From a virus, in IMG/VR virus record IMGVR_UViG_3300025138_000234, positions 1-29,158 of that record: DNA of 29,158 nucleotides, one strand, 5' to 3'. The position numbers and the translations under genes are program-made. Positions within the stretch are counted from its first letter, which is position 1; each line of letters opens with the position of its first letter. This document shows positions 2,435-28,956 of this stretch, one piece after another. The notes under the pieces were generated by a model, which had not been told where the DNA came from, ran no database searches, and was given only the letters and a program-made list of their open reading frames with translations.

Positions 2435-4270
2435 ATGCACACTGTCGTGTTTGATATAGAGACGAACGGCATCAAGTGCTTCCGGACCTTACTTGGTCTT
2501 AAGAAGATCCACTGTGTCGCGCTCTCAACTAACGGAGACGATCCACGTCTCGTCACTATTGAAGAAGGTCTTGAGGAGCTTCGACTCGCTGATGTAATTA
2601 TAGGTCACAACATTCAGGAGTTTGACGTTCGGGCCATCCAACGTCTTTACCCTGAATGGGAGCCAACGGGCTGTGTCAGAGATACGCTTGTTATGTCTCG
2701 AATGCTGTGGCCTGACATAGCCAACACGGACTGGCACAACGTTGACTTTCCGAAGAAGTTTGCTGGCCGCCACTCACTGAAGGCGTGGGGCTACAGGCTC
2801 GGGATGCATAAGGGTGACTACGGTGAGCAGGACAACTGCTGGGACGAGTACACGGATGAGATGGGCGAGTACTGTGTCCAAGATGTCCGGGTTACTCTTG
2901 CCCTATGGAACAAGATCAAGGCTGAGGACGTGCCTGAAAACCCCACCGTGTTGGAACACGAATTCGCGGCCACAATTTCTCAACAAGAGAGAAACGGGAT
3001 CGGTTTCAACGTAGACGCAGCTAGGGAGCTGCACGGATCCTTGCTGGCTGCCAAGGACGAGGTACAGAAGGAACTGAAGACGGCGTTCCCTCCACAGACC
3101 ATCCCCATGAAGACACCTCTGTATTACTATGATCCGGAGACTGATGCGAAATATGACAAGAAGAAGGATTGTCCCGCAAAGCTCAGGTCTCGGTTACTCG
3201 CCGGGGAAAAGAGGGTCAAAACAATACCGTTTAACCCCGGCTCACGGGATCAGATCGCGAAAGGTCTTATCCAGAAGCACGGATGGGAGCCTACGGAGTT
3301 CACTCCTGAGGGCCGTCCGAAGATCGATGAGACGGTTCTTAAAGGTCTTGAATACCCTGAGTGCAAGCCGTTGATCCAGTATCTGCTTTTAGGCAAGCGA
3401 CTGGGGCAAGTGGCCGAGGGTCGAGAGGCGTGGATCAAGCTGGAGAAGGACGGTCGAATCTATGGTCGCGTCAATCCCTGCGGCGCAGTGTCAACGAGAT
3501 GTACGCACAGCAAGCCTAACGTCGCTCAGGTGCCTAGAGTGTCAGCTCCTTGGGGCTTCGAGTGCCGCAGCTTGTTCTGCGCTCCTGCCGGGTTTCGTCT
3601 AGTGGGTGCAGATATGAGCGGCCTAGAACTTCGGTGCCTTGCTCACTACACGTTTAGATACGACAACGGACTGTATCGTGACGCGATCCTTGAAGGTGAC
3701 ATCCATGAGATCAATAAGGATGCGGCAGGTCTGGACAACAGAGACCAAGCGAAAGTCTTCGTGTACGCCCTTCTCTACGGAGCAGGCGCGGCCCGCATTG
3801 GTAAGATCGTGGGAGGCACGGCCCGTGACGGCAGCCACCTTAAGACCGTCTTCTTGAATCGGATGCCTGCGCTGAAGAAGCTGAAGGACGCTGTCGAGTT
3901 CAGGGCAGACAAACTGGGGGTATTGAAGGCTATCGATGGGCGTACTCTCAGGGTCAGGTCGAAGCACAGTGCGCTGAACCTACTGCTTCAGTCCGCCGGG
4001 TCGATCGCGATGAAAGAGGCAACGTGCAACCTCGCGTCAACGATCAGGCAGAAGAGTCTTATTAACCTCGTCGATCAGAAGTATTACAAGCGGGTCAAGC
4101 AAGTCGCTCATATTCACGACGAACTACAGCTTGAAGTCCCTGAAGAGATCACTCACAAGGTCGGGATCAGCGCAGTGGAGGCGATGGAAAAGGCGGGGGA
4201 AACCCTAGGGTTCAAGTGTCCACTAACGGGGGAATATCGTGTTGGAGCCAACTGGGCAGAGACGCATTGA
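2435..4270 (+). CDS. T7 gp5-like family A DNA polymerase with 3'-5' exonuclease
   Basis: 611 aa (T7 gp5 is 704). Exonuclease domain intact: Exo I FDIETNG (D7, E9), Exo II IIGHNIQEFD (D64), Exo III EYCVQDVRVT (Y146, D150). Polymerase domain: T-R-x-T-H-S-K-P-N-V-A-Q-V-P near 354-367, motif A GADMSGLELR (catalytic D393), motif B RDQAKVFVYALLYGAG with K440 and Y444, motif C HIHDELQLE (D562). Y444 aligns with T7 Y526 (E. coli Pol I position 762), so this is a Tyr-type replicase. The thumb insertion between about 216 and 265 is shorter than the T7 thioredoxin-binding segment, which probably accounts for part of the length difference. ATG with AGAAAGAAG-type RBS, preceded by a hairpin. The last 32 nt overlap the LAGLIDADG gene. 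Confidence 0.96.
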   Translation: MHTVVFDIETNGIKCFRTLLGLKKIHCVALSTNGDDPRLVTIEEGLEELRLADVIIGHNIQEFDVRAIQRLYPEWEPTGCVRDTLVMSRMLWPDIANTDWHNVDFPKKFAGRHSLKAWGYRLGMHKGDYGEQDNCWDEYTDEMGEYCVQDVRVTLALWNKIKAEDVPENPTVLEHEFAATISQQERNGIGFNVDAARELHGSLLAAKDEVQKELKTAFPPQTIPMKTPLYYYDPETDAKYDKKKDCPAKLRSRLLAGEKRVKTIPFNPGSRDQIAKGLIQKHGWEPTEFTPEGRPKIDETVLKGLEYPECKPLIQYLLLGKRLGQVAEGREAWIKLEKDGRIYGRVNPCGAVSTRCTHSKPNVAQVPRVSAPWGFECRSLFCAPAGFRLVGADMSGLELRCLAHYTFRYDNGLYRDAILEGDIHEINKDAAGLDNRDQAKVFVYALLYGAGAARIGKIVGGTARDGSHLKTVFLNRMPALKKLKDAVEFRADKLGVLKAIDGRTLRVRSKHSALNLLLQSAGSIAMKEATCNLASTIRQKSLINLVDQKYYKRVKQVAHIHDELQLEVPEEITHKVGISAVEAMEKAGETLGFKCPLTGEYRVGANWAETH

Positions 4271-4619
4271 TGTAGCGTACTTAGCAGGTCTCGTAGACGG
4301 CGAAGGATGCTTTTTGTTTAACGGAGGTCCTCACCTCAGGGTGGAGTCCACTAGCCGGTGCGTCATTGAAAAAATGCATGAAGTGTTCGGCGGCAGTTGC
4401 GCGGTCGCTAAAAGAAAGACGGCACTGAATAGGATCGTTTTTATGTGGAGCGCGTACGGTCCTACGGCCTCCTCGATAGCCGAAGAGCTTGCTGAGTTTT
4501 TGATTGATAAGCGTATTCAAGCTATACTTATGTCACGTATTCAGAAGTATCCGCCGGGGTCCGCGATGCGCGAGTCAATTAAGATCCGGCTTAAATCCAT
4601 AAAAAAGGCTGCCTCGTGA
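4239..4619 (+). CDS. Small single-motif LAGLIDADG-type protein
   Basis: 126 aa beginning at GTG 4239 behind GGGGGA, overlapping the polymerase end. Residues 14-25 (YLAGLVDGEGCF) form a LAGLIDADG helix with the acidic residue, followed by G-x-L-R-V-x-S-T/S-R and a V-F-G-G loop typical of this fold; the C-terminus is basic (R-I-Q-K-Y, I-R-L-K-S-I-K-K). Only one motif is present, so an active enzyme would need to be a homodimer; stand-alone degenerate versions also exist in phages. It sits between polymerase and exonuclease, the same place where T7 carries the HNH homing gene 5.3. Base use looks A/T-richer than neighbours near its 3' end, which fits mobile origin. Activity and target site cannot be read from the sequence. 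Confidence 0.7.
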   Translation: MLEPTGQRRIDVAYLAGLVDGEGCFLFNGGPHLRVESTSRCVIEKMHEVFGGSCAVAKRKTALNRIVFMWSAYGPTASSIAEELAEFLIDKRIQAILMSRIQKYPPGSAMRESIKIRLKSIKKAAS

Positions 4620-8164: not shown

Positions 8165-8958
8165 TGGGTGATTACCAGAAAGTAGAAATTGTTAGAGACG
8201 GCGACCCCGAAGGCGCGGCCCAAGAAGCGGAGATGCAGCAGAGCCTGCAAGCCGAGCTACAACAGCAGCAGGAGGCTCAGCAAGAGCAGCCCGCAGAAGA
8301 GTCGATGATGGAGGAGTCTACGGAATCTCCTGAGCGACCCGAGTGGCTCCCTGATAAGTTCGTCAGCCCGGAAGCCATGGCTAAGGCGTATAACGAGCTT
8401 GAAGGAATGATGTCTCAGTCAAAGCCTGAAGAAACTCAGGAAGGCGAGCTTGAGCCTCTGTCAAATGACGACTTTGCCGCGTTTGGACAAGAGCTTCAGA
8501 TGACCGGAGAAGTATCTGAAGAGTCTAAGCAGCAGATGGTTGACTGGGGTCTCCCAAGGGAAGTTGTCGAAGCTCATATTGCAGGACAGCAGGCCCGCCT
8601 TCAGCTTGAGATTCAGGGCGTCCAGAACGAAGTCGGTGGGTCTGAATCGTATGAGCAGATGATCGAGTGGGCTACGCAGCACCTTGACGAAGCTGACCAG
8701 AACGCGTTTGATCAGGCCGTGACTCAAGGGAACATGGAGCAAATGACGTTTGCTGTTCGCAGTCTTAAGGCTCGATGGGAAGCCTCAGGAGGCCGTAGCG
8801 GTAACCTTATCCAAGGAGACACGAGCGCGGCTCAGTCATACTCGGGCTACAGATCTTTGGCTGAGCTTACGTCGGCCATGAAAGACCCTCGATACAGAGA
8901 CGACCGTGCGTACCGAAAAGACGTAGAGACAAGGCTTGCTAACTCGGACATCCTGTGA
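8164..8958 (+). CDS. T7 gp9-like capsid assembly scaffolding protein
   Basis: 264 aa, acidic and Gln/Glu-rich, helical, without enzymatic motifs. N-terminal Q-rich coiled region (A-E-L-Q-Q-Q-Q-E-A-Q-Q), then P-E-W-L-P-D-K-F-V-S-P-E-A-M-A-K-A-Y-N-E-L-E, which is the characteristic scaffold signature, and a C-terminal L-A-E-L-T-S-A-M-K-D-P-R-Y-R-D-D-R-A-Y-R-K-D-V capsid-interacting helix region. It would direct polymerisation of the capsid protein on the portal and leave before or during packaging. Gene order portal-scaffold-capsid is as in T7, but four small genes intervene before the capsid here. Its TGA overlaps the next GTG start (GTGA). Confidence 0.9.
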   Translation: MGDYQKVEIVRDGDPEGAAQEAEMQQSLQAELQQQQEAQQEQPAEESMMEESTESPERPEWLPDKFVSPEAMAKAYNELEGMMSQSKPEETQEGELEPLSNDDFAAFGQELQMTGEVSEESKQQMVDWGLPREVVEAHIAGQQARLQLEIQGVQNEVGGSESYEQMIEWATQHLDEADQNAFDQAVTQGNMEQMTFAVRSLKARWEASGGRSGNLIQGDTSAAQSYSGYRSLAELTSAMKDPRYRDDRAYRKDVETRLANSDIL

Positions 8959-9314
8959 ACTACGGATGCTTGATGCTTGCGGCCTTGTTACTTGTCGGGT
9001 GTCAGACGACTGTTCCTGTCGAGACTTCGAGAGCCGTTAATCAGCTCAAGGAGTCCGCCGAGTCGGAACCGTTGACGGTACTGTCTGTGACCGGCGGCTT
9101 GTGTCTGATAGCCGGGATGGTACTGCTTGTTGTCACCTCTGGCCGCAAGGGGTGGTATCCGGTAATTGGCGGACTGCTACTCGTGGTCCTGAACTACGTC
9201 GTCGCCCGCTATTCGCACTACTTATTCGCACCGGCCATCGTGTTCACGGGAATGATCAGTGCCGCGTGGACATACAAGACCATCAAACAGATTCTTCTGG
9301 AGAAGAGACAATGA
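8955..9314 (+). CDS. Putative membrane lipoprotein with three transmembrane segments
   Basis: 119 aa. Hydrophobic N-terminus M-L-A-A-L-L-L-V-G-C-Q forms a lipobox-like L-V-G-C (Cys16 with the GTG start), followed by a short polar stretch and then three hydrophobic segments at about 40-62, 67-86 and 90-108, with a basic C-terminus. The GTG start makes a 4-nt GTGA overlap with the scaffold stop; an in-frame ATG six codons later would leave only nine residues before the Cys. The N-region lacks the usual Lys/Arg, so lipidation is not certain. Together with the next gene it forms a membrane pair between scaffold and capsid. A holin, spanin-like or ejection-assisting role is possible but none is demonstrated. 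Confidence 0.7.
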   Translation: MNYGCLMLAALLLVGCQTTVPVETSRAVNQLKESAESEPLTVLSVTGGLCLIAGMVLLVVTSGRKGWYPVIGGLLLVVLNYVVARYSHYLFAPAIVFTGMISAAWTYKTIKQILLEKRQ

Positions 9315-9439
9315 TTATCGCTACCGTATCCGGCTTCTTTGGCACCGCATGGTTCATGGCTCTCATTGCTGTCGGCGGATTTGTCGCAGGCATGTGTTTC
9401 AAGGACTGGTTCTTGAAGCTCATTAGCAAGGGCAGGTAA
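9311..9439 (+). CDS. 42-aa single-pass membrane protein
   Basis: Short gene starting at ATG in an ATGA overlap with the lipoprotein-like gene. One long hydrophobic span (residues 2-29, with G-F-F-G-T-A-W-F-M-A-L-I-A-V-G-G-F-V-A-G) followed by a basic tail F-K-D-W-F-L-K-L-I-S-K-G-R, predicting N-out/C-in insertion. RBS-like GGAGAAGAGA just upstream. Size and layout resemble small phage holins or antiholins, or an accessory to the preceding membrane protein. The same frame is open further upstream, but that part lies under the lipoprotein gene and looks non-genuine. The next ATG overlaps its stop (TAATG). Confidence 0.65.
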   Translation: MIIATVSGFFGTAWFMALIAVGGFVAGMCFKDWFLKLISKGR

Positions 9440-24801: not shown

Positions 24802-25425
24802 ATGGTAACTAAAGTAACATCAGGAATGACTGACGGCGTTGTCGTGGCGACGGAGAAGTCGCTCGCCAATCCGTCATCGAAACCGGGGTCCGGGTCCGCA
24901 AACAAAGTCGCAATCCTTAACGCCGAAGGAAACCTAGACGATCACTACTTGCCGAGCTACGTAGGGCAGTGGAGGCTGACGGTTGACTTTGCGATCGGGA
25001 CATCAGAAGCGATCGTAGCTAATACGTGGGAAAAAGTAGACACTTCCGTGCAGGGGACGGGCGTAGGTTCTCACATGGCTCAGACCAGCGGCACCTTCAC
25101 GTTCCCCGAGACAGGCAAATGGATGGTTGAGTTTCACGGTCGGGTCACTAAAAACAGCGCAGATGTCGCAGTGATTGCCGCAGACTTGTTTGCGACTACG
25201 GGATCTGGCGGCAGTACCGAAGTTAGGGTCGCTCAGAGCTGGGGATCCGTAGCTACGGCAGGTACAAACGATACACTCTGTATGTCGTCAATGATTGACG
25301 TGACAAACGTCAGCGACAACAAAGTTAAGATCAAACTGTCTGCGGGCAACTCAGGAGCGGACCTGAAAGGAAACTCGACATTCAACCTCACTTACTTGAC
25401 ATTTACGAGGCTCGGAGCGACTTGA
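24802..25425 (+). CDS. Putative second tail fibre / receptor-binding tip protein
   Basis: 207 aa, ATG behind AGGAGGG (24791-24797). The N-terminal part has G-S-G-S-A-N-K-V-A-I-L-N-A-E-G-N-L-D; from about 55 on it is beta-rich with F-T-F-P-E-T-G-K-W-M-V-E-F-H-G, D-L-F-A-T-T-G-S-G-G, A-Q-S-W-G-S-V and a final N-L-T-Y-L-T-F-T-R-L-G. This arrangement resembles C1q/TNF-like jelly-roll heads on phage fibres and receptor-binding proteins. Located directly after the gp17-like fibre, it could be a fibre-tip subunit or a secondary adsorption protein. No chaperone or depolymerase motif seen. Stop overlaps the next ATG (TGATG). Confidence 0.65.
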   Translation: MVTKVTSGMTDGVVVATEKSLANPSSKPGSGSANKVAILNAEGNLDDHYLPSYVGQWRLTVDFAIGTSEAIVANTWEKVDTSVQGTGVGSHMAQTSGTFTFPETGKWMVEFHGRVTKNSADVAVIAADLFATTGSGGSTEVRVAQSWGSVATAGTNDTLCMSSMIDVTNVSDNKVKIKLSAGNSGADLKGNSTFNLTYLTFTRLGAT

Positions 25426-25634
25426 TGGACAACGAGATACTGATTGCTTTAGGCCGTCTTGAAGGCAAAGTAGACGCGCTTATTGCTAGGCAAGCAATTC
25501 ACGATGAAGAGCTGGACAGGCACGACAAACGGCTTCGAGATCTTGAGCAGTCGAAGTCATGGCTGCTGGGGATTGCTGCCGCAGTCGGAGCTGTTGCGGG
25601 ATTTGTCATCAACTACGTAGGGGGTCAGGGCTAG
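25425..25634 (+). CDS. Holin-like protein with coiled coil and one C-terminal membrane span
   Basis: 69 aa. Residues 1-42 form a charged heptad-like helix (I-A-L-G-R-L-E-G-K-V-D-A-L-I, L-D-R-H-D-K-R-L-R-D-L-E), followed by S-K-S-W-L-L-G and a transmembrane helix at about 46-66. This is the XhlA-like arrangement often annotated as holin in podoviruses, and the place matches T7 holin gene 17.5 between tail fibre and small terminase. It would set lysis timing by acting in the inner membrane. ATG 25425 overlaps the previous stop; an upstream in-frame TTG adds only one residue. Confidence 0.72.
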   Translation: MDNEILIALGRLEGKVDALIARQAIHDEELDRHDKRLRDLEQSKSWLLGIAAAVGAVAGFVINYVGGQG

Positions 25635-25840
25635 TGAACGATATTCTTGAAGAACTTCATAAGCATCTTGCAGAGGACCTTCTACATAAGATTCGATCAG
25701 GCGAGGCTACAGCCGCAGAGCTTAGTGTTGCTCGCGCATTTCTTAAGGACAACGGCATTGACGCAATAATGGAAGCAAGCGAGCCGTTGAACAACTTGGC
25801 TAAGACGCTTCCGTTTAACGTAGACACGGAGGTAGCGTGA
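25634..25840 (+). CDS. Small terminase subunit (T7 gp18-like)
   Basis: 68 aa, start GTG sharing a base with the holin TAG (TAGTG). Helical protein with L-E-E-L-H-K-H-L-A-E-D-L-L-H-K-I-R-S-G-E-A-T-A-A-E-L and A-R-A-F-L-K-D-N-G-I-D, the signature of small terminases in marine T7-like phages. It would recognise the concatemer or modulate the large subunit during packaging. Shorter than T7 gp18 (89 aa). A longer form starting 75 nt upstream would lie under the holin and has an implausible Cys/Arg-rich start. Stop overlaps the next start (TGATG). Confidence 0.78.
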   Translation: MNDILEELHKHLAEDLLHKIRSGEATAAELSVARAFLKDNGIDAIMEASEPLNNLAKTLPFNVDTEVA

Positions 25841-26586
25841 TGAAGAAAGTTGGAAAGAAAAGAAAAGGCTGTGATTGCGGCGAGGGCGACTGCGGGGACT
25901 GTGGAAGTGGTAAGGTTAAGACTTATTCGAGTCCGGCGTGCAATCAGCGCGTAGGAAGAAACTTCAAACAATGCACGACTCAGTATGGGATGAATCCCCC
26001 TCCTTCACCATCCTCTCCGGGCGGCGTTGGTAGTAATAAACCTACTCCGGTTCCTACGACCCCCTCAATAACCGACGCTCAAGGCAACACGGGAGGTAGT
26101 GATCCCGACGACGGAGACAACGGAGACGACGGAGACAACGGAGACAACGGCGGAGGAAACCCGATAACACCCGAGCAATTCCTTGCAATGCTGGATATGG
26201 ACGGTGACGGTTTTATTGACGGCGACGAGTGGCAAGCGTGGAGAGCCCAACTTGTCGCTCTTATAGCGTCCGGAGAATACGACCCTCTTTTCGATATGAA
26301 TGGGGATGGTGTTATTGACAACGCCGACAAAGTACTCGCTAGGGCAACTTGGCAGTCATTTCGACCGCCAGTCGCTCCTGAAACGGAAGAGCTGGAAGAA
26401 TCTGACAGGCTCGTGAAGGGGAACCTCCTGAGTCCGATGGACGTGAATGATTACGTCAAGAAGCGTAATGTCGTCATGAACAAGCGTAAGATTGGCAAAA
26501 AGCAGAAGTACAGCGCATCTAACTCCATGCAAAGCGATCCCGGTTCCGGGGGCGGCGGCACTCCAGTCGGAGGTGGCGGCCGTTAA
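25840..26586 (+). CDS. Cys-rich protein with EF-hand/dockerin-like calcium loops, between the terminase genes
   Basis: 248 aa from the ATG (a GTG one codon earlier is also in frame). Domains in order: basic start (K-K-V-G-K-K-R-K-G) and a C-D-C-G-E-G-D-C-G-D-C-G cluster with two more cysteines to residue 45; a Pro/Ser/Thr linker; a Gly/Asp repeat (about 86-105); a calcium-loop pair with EF loop 1 D119-M-D-G-D-G-F-I-D-G-D-E130 (fully canonical) and loop 2 D152-M-N-G-D-G-V-I-D-N-A-D163 (dockerin-like, ending in D); then a basic helix (V-N-D-Y-V-K-K-R-N-V-V-M-N-K-R-K) and a Gly-rich tail. No signal peptide. The function is not recognised; calcium binding and metal/disulfide formation are likely. 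T7 has the spanin gene 18.5 in this slot; this protein does not resemble it. Confidence 0.8.
   Translation: MKKVGKKRKGCDCGEGDCGDCGSGKVKTYSSPACNQRVGRNFKQCTTQYGMNPPPSPSSPGGVGSNKPTPVPTTPSITDAQGNTGGSDPDDGDNGDDGDNGDNGGGNPITPEQFLAMLDMDGDGFIDGDEWQAWRAQLVALIASGEYDPLFDMNGDGVIDNADKVLARATWQSFRPPVAPETEELEESDRLVKGNLLSPMDVNDYVKKRNVVMNKRKIGKKQKYSASNSMQSDPGSGGGGTPVGGGGR
26107..26151 (+). repeat. 9-nt tandem repeat, five units, encoding Asp-(Asp/Asn)-Gly
   Basis: Five consecutive units of GACRACGGA (last unit GGC) in frame within the calcium-loop gene, giving DDG-DNG-DDG-DNG-DNG. Such repeats can expand or contract by slippage in multiples of three residues without a frameshift. Confidence 0.85.
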
Positions 26587-28244
26587 TGGATGACCGGCTT
26601 AAAGATTTTCGGAACTTCCTGTATCTGGCTTGGGATCATTTGGGTCTACCGGACCCTACTCCTATTCAGTACGACATTGCTGACTACATCCAGTCAGGAC
26701 CGAAAAGACGAGTCGTTCAAGCATTCAGGGGCGTGGGTAAGTCTTGGATTACGTCCGCGTACGTATGTCATTCCCTACTGTTGGACCCGACAAAGAACAT
26801 AATGGTCGTATCCGGCTCGAAACAACGAGCTGATGACTTCTCAACATTTACTTTGCGGCTGATATCAGACATGCCGATGCTTCGGCACCTGATTCCTACC
26901 GATAGTCAGAGGAACAGCAAGATCGCGTTTGACGTTGGCCCAGCTCCAGCTTCCCACGCCCCCTCAGTCGTTTCCAAAGGTATCTCCAGCCAGATCACGG
27001 GATCACGCGCTGATTTGATCGTCGCAGACGACGTGGAGAGCTTGAACAACTCAGCCACCCAAATGATGCGTGACAAGCTCAGTGAGTCCATCAAGGAGTT
27101 TGACGCGGTCCTGAAGCCGGGTGGAGAGATCCTGTTCTTGGGGACTCCACAAACGGAATCCAGTATCTACAGCGTCCTGCCTGAGCGAGGCTTCAAGACG
27201 TTGATCTGGCCCGCTAGATACCCGACAAGGGGCCAGCTCAAGAGGTACGGAGACACGTTGGCTCCGAAGATCGAAGAGGCGATGGAGGACGAGGAAACCG
27301 TAGGACAGCCTACGGACCCAAAAAGATTCGACGATCAGGACCTGATGGAGCGAGAAGCGTCCTATGGCCGCACCGGGTTCTCCTTGCAGTTCATGCTGGA
27401 CCCAAGCCTCAGCGACCTCGACAGATACCCGTTGAAGCTGTCGGATCTTGTCGTCATGTCTTTGAATCCTCGTCAGGGACCGGAGAAGCCCGTCTGGGCG
27501 GCTTCAGCAGAGAATATGGTCAAGGACCTGCCGAACGTTGGGCTGCCCGGAGATCGCTTCTACGGGCCTCTCACGGTAATTGACGGTAAATGGGCTGACT
27601 ACACAGGCTCAGTGATGGCTATTGACCCGTCAGGCCGTGGTGCGGACGAGACTTCTTACGCTGTCGTCAAGATGCTGAACGGGTTCTTGTTCGTGACGGA
27701 TGCGGGAGGACTGCCGGGGGGCTATAGCGAGGACACGTTGAAACGGCTGGCTATGGTCGCCAAGGAGCAGGAAGTCAACGAGATCGTCGTGGAGTCCAAC
27801 TTCGGTGACGGCATGTTCACGCAGCTCCTGAAGCCGATCCTTGGGAAGATCTACAGATGTACGATCGAGGAAGTCCGGCATAGCGTCCAGAAGGAACGTC
27901 GTATCTGCGACACGCTGGAACCTGTGATGAACAGCCATCGCCTCTGTATTGACAAACGGGTGATTGAAAAGGACTACGACAGCACGAGACATCTGCCGCC
28001 TGAGAAAGCGTTGAGATACCAGATGATGTACCAGATGAGCCGGGTGACCCGTCAGAAGGGTGCGCTGGCTCATGACGACAGGCTTGATGTCCTCGCTATT
28101 GCGGTCAACTACTGGACGGAACAGATGGCTCAGGACGCTGACAAAGCGATGGCGAATAGAGCGGACGATAAGTTGCGTAAGGAACTGGATGATTTCGTCG
28201 ATGGAGTCATGGGTCGTAAACGTAAGCCGCTCAGTTGGTTCTGA
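26586..28244 (+). CDS. Large terminase subunit (T7 gp19-like ATPase/nuclease)
   Basis: 552 aa (T7 gp19 is 586). ATPase domain: adenine-side P-T-P-I-Q-Y-D, Walker A F-R-G-V-G-K-S-W (47-54), Walker B L-I-V-A-D-D-V-E (144-151), coupling motif L-G-T-P-Q-T. Nuclease domain: A-I-D-P-S-G-R-G-A-D-E-T (D347), V-V-E-S-N-F-G-D-G (E403), and the late A-H-D-D-R-L-D-V-L-A (D497, D498, D501) metal-binding acids. It docks on the portal, translocates concatemeric DNA and cuts genome ends. The start overlaps the previous stop (TAATG). A non-coding structured stretch follows, as expected near the end of the T7-type late transcription unit. Confidence 0.96.
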   Translation: MDDRLKDFRNFLYLAWDHLGLPDPTPIQYDIADYIQSGPKRRVVQAFRGVGKSWITSAYVCHSLLLDPTKNIMVVSGSKQRADDFSTFTLRLISDMPMLRHLIPTDSQRNSKIAFDVGPAPASHAPSVVSKGISSQITGSRADLIVADDVESLNNSATQMMRDKLSESIKEFDAVLKPGGEILFLGTPQTESSIYSVLPERGFKTLIWPARYPTRGQLKRYGDTLAPKIEEAMEDEETVGQPTDPKRFDDQDLMEREASYGRTGFSLQFMLDPSLSDLDRYPLKLSDLVVMSLNPRQGPEKPVWAASAENMVKDLPNVGLPGDRFYGPLTVIDGKWADYTGSVMAIDPSGRGADETSYAVVKMLNGFLFVTDAGGLPGGYSEDTLKRLAMVAKEQEVNEIVVESNFGDGMFTQLLKPILGKIYRCTIEEVRHSVQKERRICDTLEPVMNSHRLCIDKRVIEKDYDSTRHLPPEKALRYQMMYQMSRVTRQKGALAHDDRLDVLAIAVNYWTEQMAQDADKAMANRADDKLRKELDDFVDGVMGRKRKPLSWF

Positions 28245-28428: not shown

Positions 28429-28956
28429 ATGCTGAAGACTCTATTTGTGATTCTCAGCGTGTCCACGGGTATCTCACAGGATCCGTGGACTGTTGAGTAC
28501 GTTACCTACGAAGAAGGACCTAAAACTACGTATCAAGGGACTGTAAGGCTTAGATTTGAAGACCACAGCACGGTCTGTATGACTCACTGCTGGGAGATAC
28601 CAGAGGGACGGCTCGTAGGATCCGCAATCTCTTCAAATCCGGGGCAACCAATGCTGCCCTTCGATAGCTGGGAGTTGACGGGAAATGAGCTACGGATCAC
28701 GTGGTGTAGGACTCCGGCCAGCAACCAGCACGTCCCAGTGCAGTCCCCGAGAAACTTTAAGTTCTCCGTTATTAAAACGACGTTTGATGGTGATGATCTA
28801 GGGAATCTACTGGCTGACTGGGGTCCTCCCGTCGTTATTGTCGTGCCTTGGCCTGAACAAAACTACACGTACGTTTCACCGTGGGACCTTAACTTGGACA
28901 CCATCGTGGACGGTAAAGACTTAGCTATTCTTCTAGGGGGTTGGAAAGTTGACTAA
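28429..28956 (+). CDS. Putative secreted protein with planctomycete-type dockerin-like repeats
   Basis: 175 aa from ATG 28429, which has RBS GAGGGGA at 28417-28423; an upstream in-frame GTG (28381) would destroy the signal peptide. M-L-K-T-L-F-V-I-L-S-V-S-T-G-I-S-Q is a short signal-peptide-like N-terminus. The middle (about 20-115) is beta-rich with three cysteines (C50, C54, C93) and no recognised fold. The C-terminus has two repeats: F-D-G-D-D-L-G-N-L-L-A-D-W-G-P (119-133, loop first half lost) and D153-L-N-L-D-T-I-V-D-G-K-D164-L-A-I-L-L-G-G-W, which fits the type I dockerin calcium loop DxNxDxxVxxxD. Such doublets are typical of secreted Phycisphaerae/Planctomycetes proteins. The role in infection is unknown: host surface modification, superinfection exclusion or virion display are options. 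Confidence 0.75.
   Translation: MLKTLFVILSVSTGISQDPWTVEYVTYEEGPKTTYQGTVRLRFEDHSTVCMTHCWEIPEGRLVGSAISSNPGQPMLPFDSWELTGNELRITWCRTPASNQHVPVQSPRNFKFSVIKTTFDGDDLGNLLADWGPPVVIVVPWPEQNYTYVSPWDLNLDTIVDGKDLAILLGGWKVD

Follow-up and report, generated by a model that had tools for sequence, protein, structure and literature searches.

The linear virus record analysed here (a marine phage from IMG/VR; 29,158 bases, called the window throughout) encodes a 175-amino acid protein, DOC, whose C-terminal tail resembles one half of a dockerin of the kind typical of one marine lineage of planctomycetes, that of Planctomycetes bacterium TMED75. We put at roughly 0.6 the probability that DOC is an exported, surface-anchored accessory protein of phages infecting this lineage, acting at lysis or against re-adsorption. 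The data behind this reading are a protein family under purifying selection, a conserved loop, a tail that matches the host lineage, and a module of genes shared between phages.

A selected gene with a dockerin-like tail

DOC and its parts lie as follows:

28429..28956, + strand: DOC, a 175-amino acid putative exported beta-sandwich protein with a half dockerin at its C-terminus (open reading frame, homologues, AF2 model, dN/dS)
28429..28479, + strand: residues 1-17, signal-peptide-like N-terminus (MLKTLFVILSVSTGISQ; hydrophobicity kept in 14 full-length members)
28480..28779, + strand: residues 18-117, virus-specific beta-sandwich domain (AF2 model; fold and genome searches)
28780..28824, + strand: residues 118-132, first dockerin-like helix (FDGDDLGNLLADWG), without a calcium loop (alignment, AF2 model)
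28885..28920, + strand: residues 153-164, single calcium-type loop DLNLDTIVDGKD (alignment; dockerin matches in the PDB)
28912..28944, + strand: residues 162-172, second dockerin-like helix, ending LLGGW (alignment, AF2 model)

The frame is open for 175 amino acids, and its ATG has GAGGGGATAAGA upstream, a good ribosome site. Comparison with the 84% relative in contig L003 gives a dN/dS of 0.28 (0.20 in the middle domain), which argues that DOC is a selected gene; in the same comparison, the N-terminal residues are the fastest-evolving part of the protein. A scan of the window for promoters and terminators returned no excess over shuffled sequences.

An earlier note on this DNA had described the start of the protein as signal-peptide-like. 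The family bears this out. Every full-length member starts with a short hydrophobic stretch, and in 13 of 14 no 9-mer elsewhere in the protein is more hydrophobic than the one found in the first 24 residues. Because this feature is kept across the family, DOC is likely to be exported, and its export during infection is plausible.

The middle of the protein was examined through an AF2 model built from 15 sequences, which replaced a poor earlier model built from three. Its mean pLDDT is 80.9, rising to about 90-95 over residues 111-170; within the beta domain, it is about 90 over most of the length and under 50 at residues 65-75. Fold searches with this domain return chitin- and cellulose-binding domains and terminal domains of glycosidases, all as weak matches with Z below 8; a carbohydrate-binding module (family 2-like) fold is possible for residues 18-117. 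Matches to the adenovirus knob and to adaptin were set aside as the likeness common to beta-sandwiches. The BFVD entry A0A516MFS6 matches the DOC fold with E 2e-7 at 22% identity. Nothing enzymatic was recognised in DOC.

As to the tail, the motifs that had been reported, DDLGNLLADWG and a DxNxDxxVxxxD loop leading to LAILLGGW, are both present in frame. They had been taken as paired dockerin repeats, and here the claim stands only in part. Both helices are there, ending LLADWG and LLGGW and spanning residues 121-129 and 162-170 in the AF2 model, but the first half lacks the DxNxD calcium loop of a normal dockerin in all 15 aligned members; in the model, the last beta strand (104-115) leads directly into the first helix, with no loop between. 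In the one loop that is kept, DLNLDTIVDGKD, positions 1, 3, 5 and 12 are invariant in 15 of 15 homologues. Invariance in these homologues extends to F110, F112, F119, D123, L128, W131, G132, S150, W152, D153, N155, D157, V160, G162, D164, L168, L169 and W172. This, together with purifying selection, means that the tail motifs are not there by chance.

A match to a dockerin profile, which the earlier note had proposed as a check, did not materialise: no model in Pfam, PHROG or NCBIfam matched the DOC protein, which falls below the Dockerin_1 cut-off, and sub-threshold Dockerin_1 matches lie at DOC in contigs L088, L092, L093 and L121. When the profile of the DOC family was compared with the PDB, the top seven entries, at E 0.004 to 0.3, were all dockerins or chains that contain one. 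From the shared loop, the helices and these PDB matches, the tail is called dockerin-like, even though the duplicated loop is absent; judged by its sequence, it is half a dockerin, and it may bind calcium.

The family and the phages that carry it

Scans of viral contigs with a growing alignment found DOC homologues in 16 IMG/VR records, to which contig L121 was added from among the terminase relatives. The alignment holds 15 members, of which 14 are full-length and one is a truncated record keeping only the end of the beta domain. All members combine a beta domain that includes F110 and F112 with two helices, the first closing on LLxxWG and the second on LLxxW; ahead of the second stands the single D-x-N-x-D loop, whose position 12 is also D. 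Proteins of this type had been called uncommon in phages. This holds for the phages in GenBank, where neither DOC nor its tail has a tblastn match in 50,697 records, nor in plasmids, but not for uncultivated phages, where a family exists. A tblastn match between a distant member and a Shewanella phage (25%, E 0.2) was taken as chance.

The homologues span at least three phage backgrounds. T7-like carriers are the window, L003 and L121. Siphovirus-like carriers are L088, L092 and L094, the first two classed by terminase phrog_2 (L088 also by portal phrog_2662) and the third by likeness. The remaining background is that of podoviruses with large virion proteins (L081-L087), in which proteins of 1,800 to 3,200 amino acids adjoin DOC; contig L082 carries a T7-type terminase matching that of the window with E 4e-114.

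The T7-like character claimed for the window itself is well founded, since it carries a T7-type terminase (PF22530), a portal, a Gp10A-like capsid, a T7 fibre N-terminus and a T7 helicase-primase. No single-subunit RNA polymerase was seen among the window reading frames examined, in a 29-kb record that may be a fragment. Directly after the DNA polymerase, at 4239-4619, stands a small reading frame with a weak LAGLIDADG match. Among 80 IMG/VR relatives of the terminase, DOC occurs only in L003, L121 and L099, and the last of these repeats part of the window sequence (terL 100% identical). In many of the DOC-free relatives, the sequence still extends more than 1 kb beyond terL.

Genes that recur with DOC

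Five other genes of the window bear on the function of DOC:

8955..9314, + strand: LPM, a 119-amino acid lipobox protein (membrane lipoprotein) with three hydrophobic segments (homologues in DOC contigs)
9311..9439, + strand: TMP, a 42-amino acid single-span membrane peptide overlapping the end of LPM (same peptide in other contigs)
25422..25634, + strand: XhlA-like small membrane protein, a possible holin (weak match, E 0.006, below cut-off)
25837..26586, + strand: EF, a 249-amino acid protein with an EF-hand and a dockerin-like loop, between TerS and TerL (Pfam; homologue in G771)
26586..28244, + strand: large terminase subunit of T7 type, encoded by the gene that precedes DOC (Pfam, PHROG, cultured relatives)

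Homologues of LPM stand directly upstream of DOC in L088, L089, L090, L092 and L094, and four that were aligned are 50-58% identical to the window LPM. TMP lies between the two in L088, L089, L090 and L092, an arrangement not found in L094. The siphovirus-like phage G771 (the L092 contig) encodes, after its head genes, a 356-amino acid protein that combines an EF-hand pair homologous to the window EF (E 6e-12) with two repeats of dockerin type. Thus LPM, TMP, EF and DOC, which in the window are spread over 19 kb, all recur in an unrelated phage, which suggests a host-specific gene set passed between phages. In L101, an 81% terminase relative, a 107-amino acid protein at 1852-2172 between terS and terL is loosely similar in part and has no EF-hand. 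The EF-hand segment of the window EF looks like an insertion.

One use for such a set would be lysis, with DOC, the lipoprotein, the 42-amino acid peptide and the XhlA-like protein forming a cassette adapted to the planctomycete envelope. XhlA-like proteins are indeed neighbours of DOC or of its cassette in L004/L084, L081, L087, L088, L089 and L094, and LPM and TMP keep company with DOC in siphovirus-like contigs as well. In the window, however, the proposed cassette is the one scattered over those 19 kb, its XhlA likeness is below cut-off, the protein concerned is only loosely like the similar-sized neighbours of DOC elsewhere, and no endolysin or spanin was recognised adjoining DOC. Such a role in lysis is possible, if short of an even chance.

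A somewhat less likely use is superinfection exclusion, or receptor masking, in which DOC, attached by its dockerin tail, would cover the infected cell and deny competing phages a surface structure that they use. A secreted-looking protein with a surface-tag tail and a binding-type beta-sandwich, common to phages that would compete for one host, is what such a role would call for, and in L088 and L092 DOC lies between replication-type and packaging genes, together with the membrane lipoprotein. In the window, by contrast, DOC follows terL, a late position, and the scan showed no early promoter. This late position suits lysis better than exclusion.

A probable host within the TMED75 lineage

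The earlier note had proposed a planctomycete host from the dockerin-like tail. The proposal gains indirect support, and the link proves sharper than was claimed, being limited to one lineage within the phylum. A search for the strict tail motif, which fixes the K and A of the window, covered 84,980 prokaryote species at one genome per species and hit a single genome, that of Planctomycetes bacterium TMED75, which NCBI places in unclassified Planctomycetota. A looser form was counted within Planctomycetota. Here, TMED75 has 14 copies and the 198 other planctomycetes of an even phylum sample of 199 have none, while in a set of TMED75 and its relatives the motif occurs in 68 of 201 genomes, with up to 104 copies in one; the reversed motif, as a control, has no match in these 201. 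The window protein carries D[LF]NxDxx[VI]DGxDLxxLLxxW, the dockerin subtype of this lineage. At E up to 1, TMED75 has 155 matches to the family profile, those listed lying in the tail, and Pfam Dockerin_1 scores above cut-off in 31 of 31 genomes of TMED75 and relatives against 2 of 14 controls. Host proteins can even end in near-identical C-terminal doublets, for example ...DLAKFLGSWGYDNPDTDFNGDGIVDGQDLALLLANWS.

These counts point to a planctomycete of the TMED75 lineage as the host, through the resemblance of a short tag rather than a physical link; searches for a direct link gave no spacer and no provirus carrying DOC. The genome of a TMED75 class-mate does contain an integrated podovirus-like element (L182, G667:C97:24000-43900), in which an integrase-like gene accompanies tail and terminase genes of T7 type. 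The terminase of this element is a 34% match to that of the window, and the stretch read has no DOC match, so that it shows only that such phages occur in class-mates of TMED75.

The host might, of course, belong to another phylum, the tail being a generic calcium-binding dockerin acquired elsewhere. The cultured relatives of the terminase, at 59-62% identity, are phages of the Roseobacter group and Pelagibacter, with alphaproteobacterial hosts, and dockerins occur in other phyla (Deinobacterium and Methanosarcina among the control matches). Yet those alphaproteobacterial phages are in a collection without a DOC match, the strict motif singles out one planctomycete, and the looser motif is lineage-limited within Planctomycetota. 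We regard a host outside the planctomycetes as improbable.

It had further been proposed that the gene was taken from the host. For the whole gene this finds no support. Against 392 planctomycete genomes, the beta domain gave one marginal, partial match (E 0.004 over 43 residues), so that this middle part appears otherwise to be found only in viral contigs, and no full-length homologue of DOC was found in 397 class-mates of TMED75. Only the tail is therefore host-like, and capture from a host would go no further than this part; taken whole, the gene belongs by its sequence relationships to a phage family. A host original of LPM was likewise sought in planctomycete genomes, with no convincing match.

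What DOC would do in infection

In the reading that we prefer, that of an exported, surface-anchored accessory protein, the Sec system of the host would export DOC during infection and remove its signal peptide. The half dockerin would act as a copy of a tag that such a host genome bears at more than a hundred sites, letting the host position or retain DOC, with the aid of calcium, at its surface or outer envelope, where some envelope component would be the ligand of the virus-specific beta-sandwich. The outcome would be an envelope weakened at lysis, or one masked against re-adsorption of progeny and debris. Unrelated phages that share these hosts would exchange DOC, in part along with the lipoprotein, the membrane peptide and the EF-hand protein. 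Counting against this explanation are the searches that gave no direct host link, the alphaproteobacterial terminase relatives, the missing calcium loop, the Pfam failure, and the scarcity of cohesin, the known dockerin partner domain, which is present in 3 of 31 genomes of the host lineage. Because cohesins are so rare there, membership of DOC in a cellulosome was rejected. That DOC is instead part of the virion, its tail binding a host surface partner during adsorption, is about as improbable as a host outside the planctomycetes: elsewhere in IMG/VR, baseplate-wedge and tail-fibre-like proteins (L012, L047, L032) do carry dockerin modules, as does a protein after the head genes of G771, but a signal-peptide-like N-terminus is unusual for a virion protein, and DOC has no structural homologue.

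Dockerin tails in other viral contigs

The looser motif occurs in 63 IMG/VR sequence stretches (phage hallmark genes were checked in part of the contigs), among them subtilases, a protein that looks trypsin-like by eye, and baseplate-wedge and fibre-like proteins. The dockerin repeats of such proteins have no tblastn match in INPHARED, where the low-complexity filter of BLAST may hide some.

The largest count of repeats is in L047 (2372-8815, - strand), where a 2,148-amino acid protein with a baseplate-wedge match has 18 Dockerin_1 stretches; it is possibly an adsorption device. Single dockerin doublets near the C-terminus are seen in a baseplate-type protein (Pfam and PHROG) in L012 (2124-4826, - strand) and in proteins of L065 and L067 that are baseplate-type by likeness. 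Subtilases of about 468 amino acids with C-terminal dockerin doublets are encoded in L016, L018, L020, L025, L033, L036, L039, L046, L048, L051 and L066 (Peptidase_S8 was tested for L016; the others are classed by likeness). L010 and about 14 similar loci (MAILKNYNP...) encode a 357-amino acid protein that scores above cut-off for Dockerin_1 and, from its GDSGSP motif, looks trypsin-like by eye; in L010 a ribonucleotide reductase gene is nearby.

We suggest tentatively, and with somewhat less than even confidence, that several unrelated phage lineages exploit a planctomycete-specific surface-sorting tag, with dockerin tails borne by accessory proteins that are exported, by proteases, and even by baseplate or fibre proteins. 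If so, sorting or surface partners of the host would serve infection, and the tag could serve as a sequence marker of planctomycete phages. This would matter because planctomycete phages are hardly known (in the literature library searched, no paper on them turned up, and none relevant on dockerins in them), and a lineage-specific tag on phage proteins offers a way to assign uncultivated phages to hosts. Further, a small phage protein makes the binding partner of planctomycete dockerins testable where cohesins are rare.

Comparison with known systems

The phages nearest to the window are T7-like marine phages (Autographiviridae; for example CRP-125, HTVC134P and the uncultured S45-C18), whose terminases are those 59-62% identical to that of the window and whose late gene order around terL is the same in those read. 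Unlike the window, the phage collection that includes them yielded nothing that matches DOC, LPM or EF; for EF and LPM, tblastn likewise returned nothing from plasmids.

Like type I dockerins (PF00404), DOC has a DxNxDxxxxxxD loop and two helices at the C-terminus of a protein that is, for DOC putatively, exported, and dockerins such as 6kg9 are its best PDB profile matches. DOC differs in having no first calcium loop, in scoring below the Pfam cut-off, and in having a presumed host lineage where the cohesin partner is scarce. The C-terminal doublets of TMED75-lineage proteins share its motif and often its C-terminal place, whereas several of these host proteins have two complete loops, and their N-terminal domains are different.

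The only published proposal found for what planctomycete dockerins bind is the "planctosome," a cohesin-dockerin peptidase complex hypothesised for freshwater planctomycetes (PMC6461901). It resembles DOC in involving non-cellulosomal dockerins, there on exported planctomycete proteins. The planctosome is, however, a peptidase complex of the host and itself a hypothesis, while DOC has no recognisable peptidase; dockerin-tailed subtilases do occur in some viral contigs.
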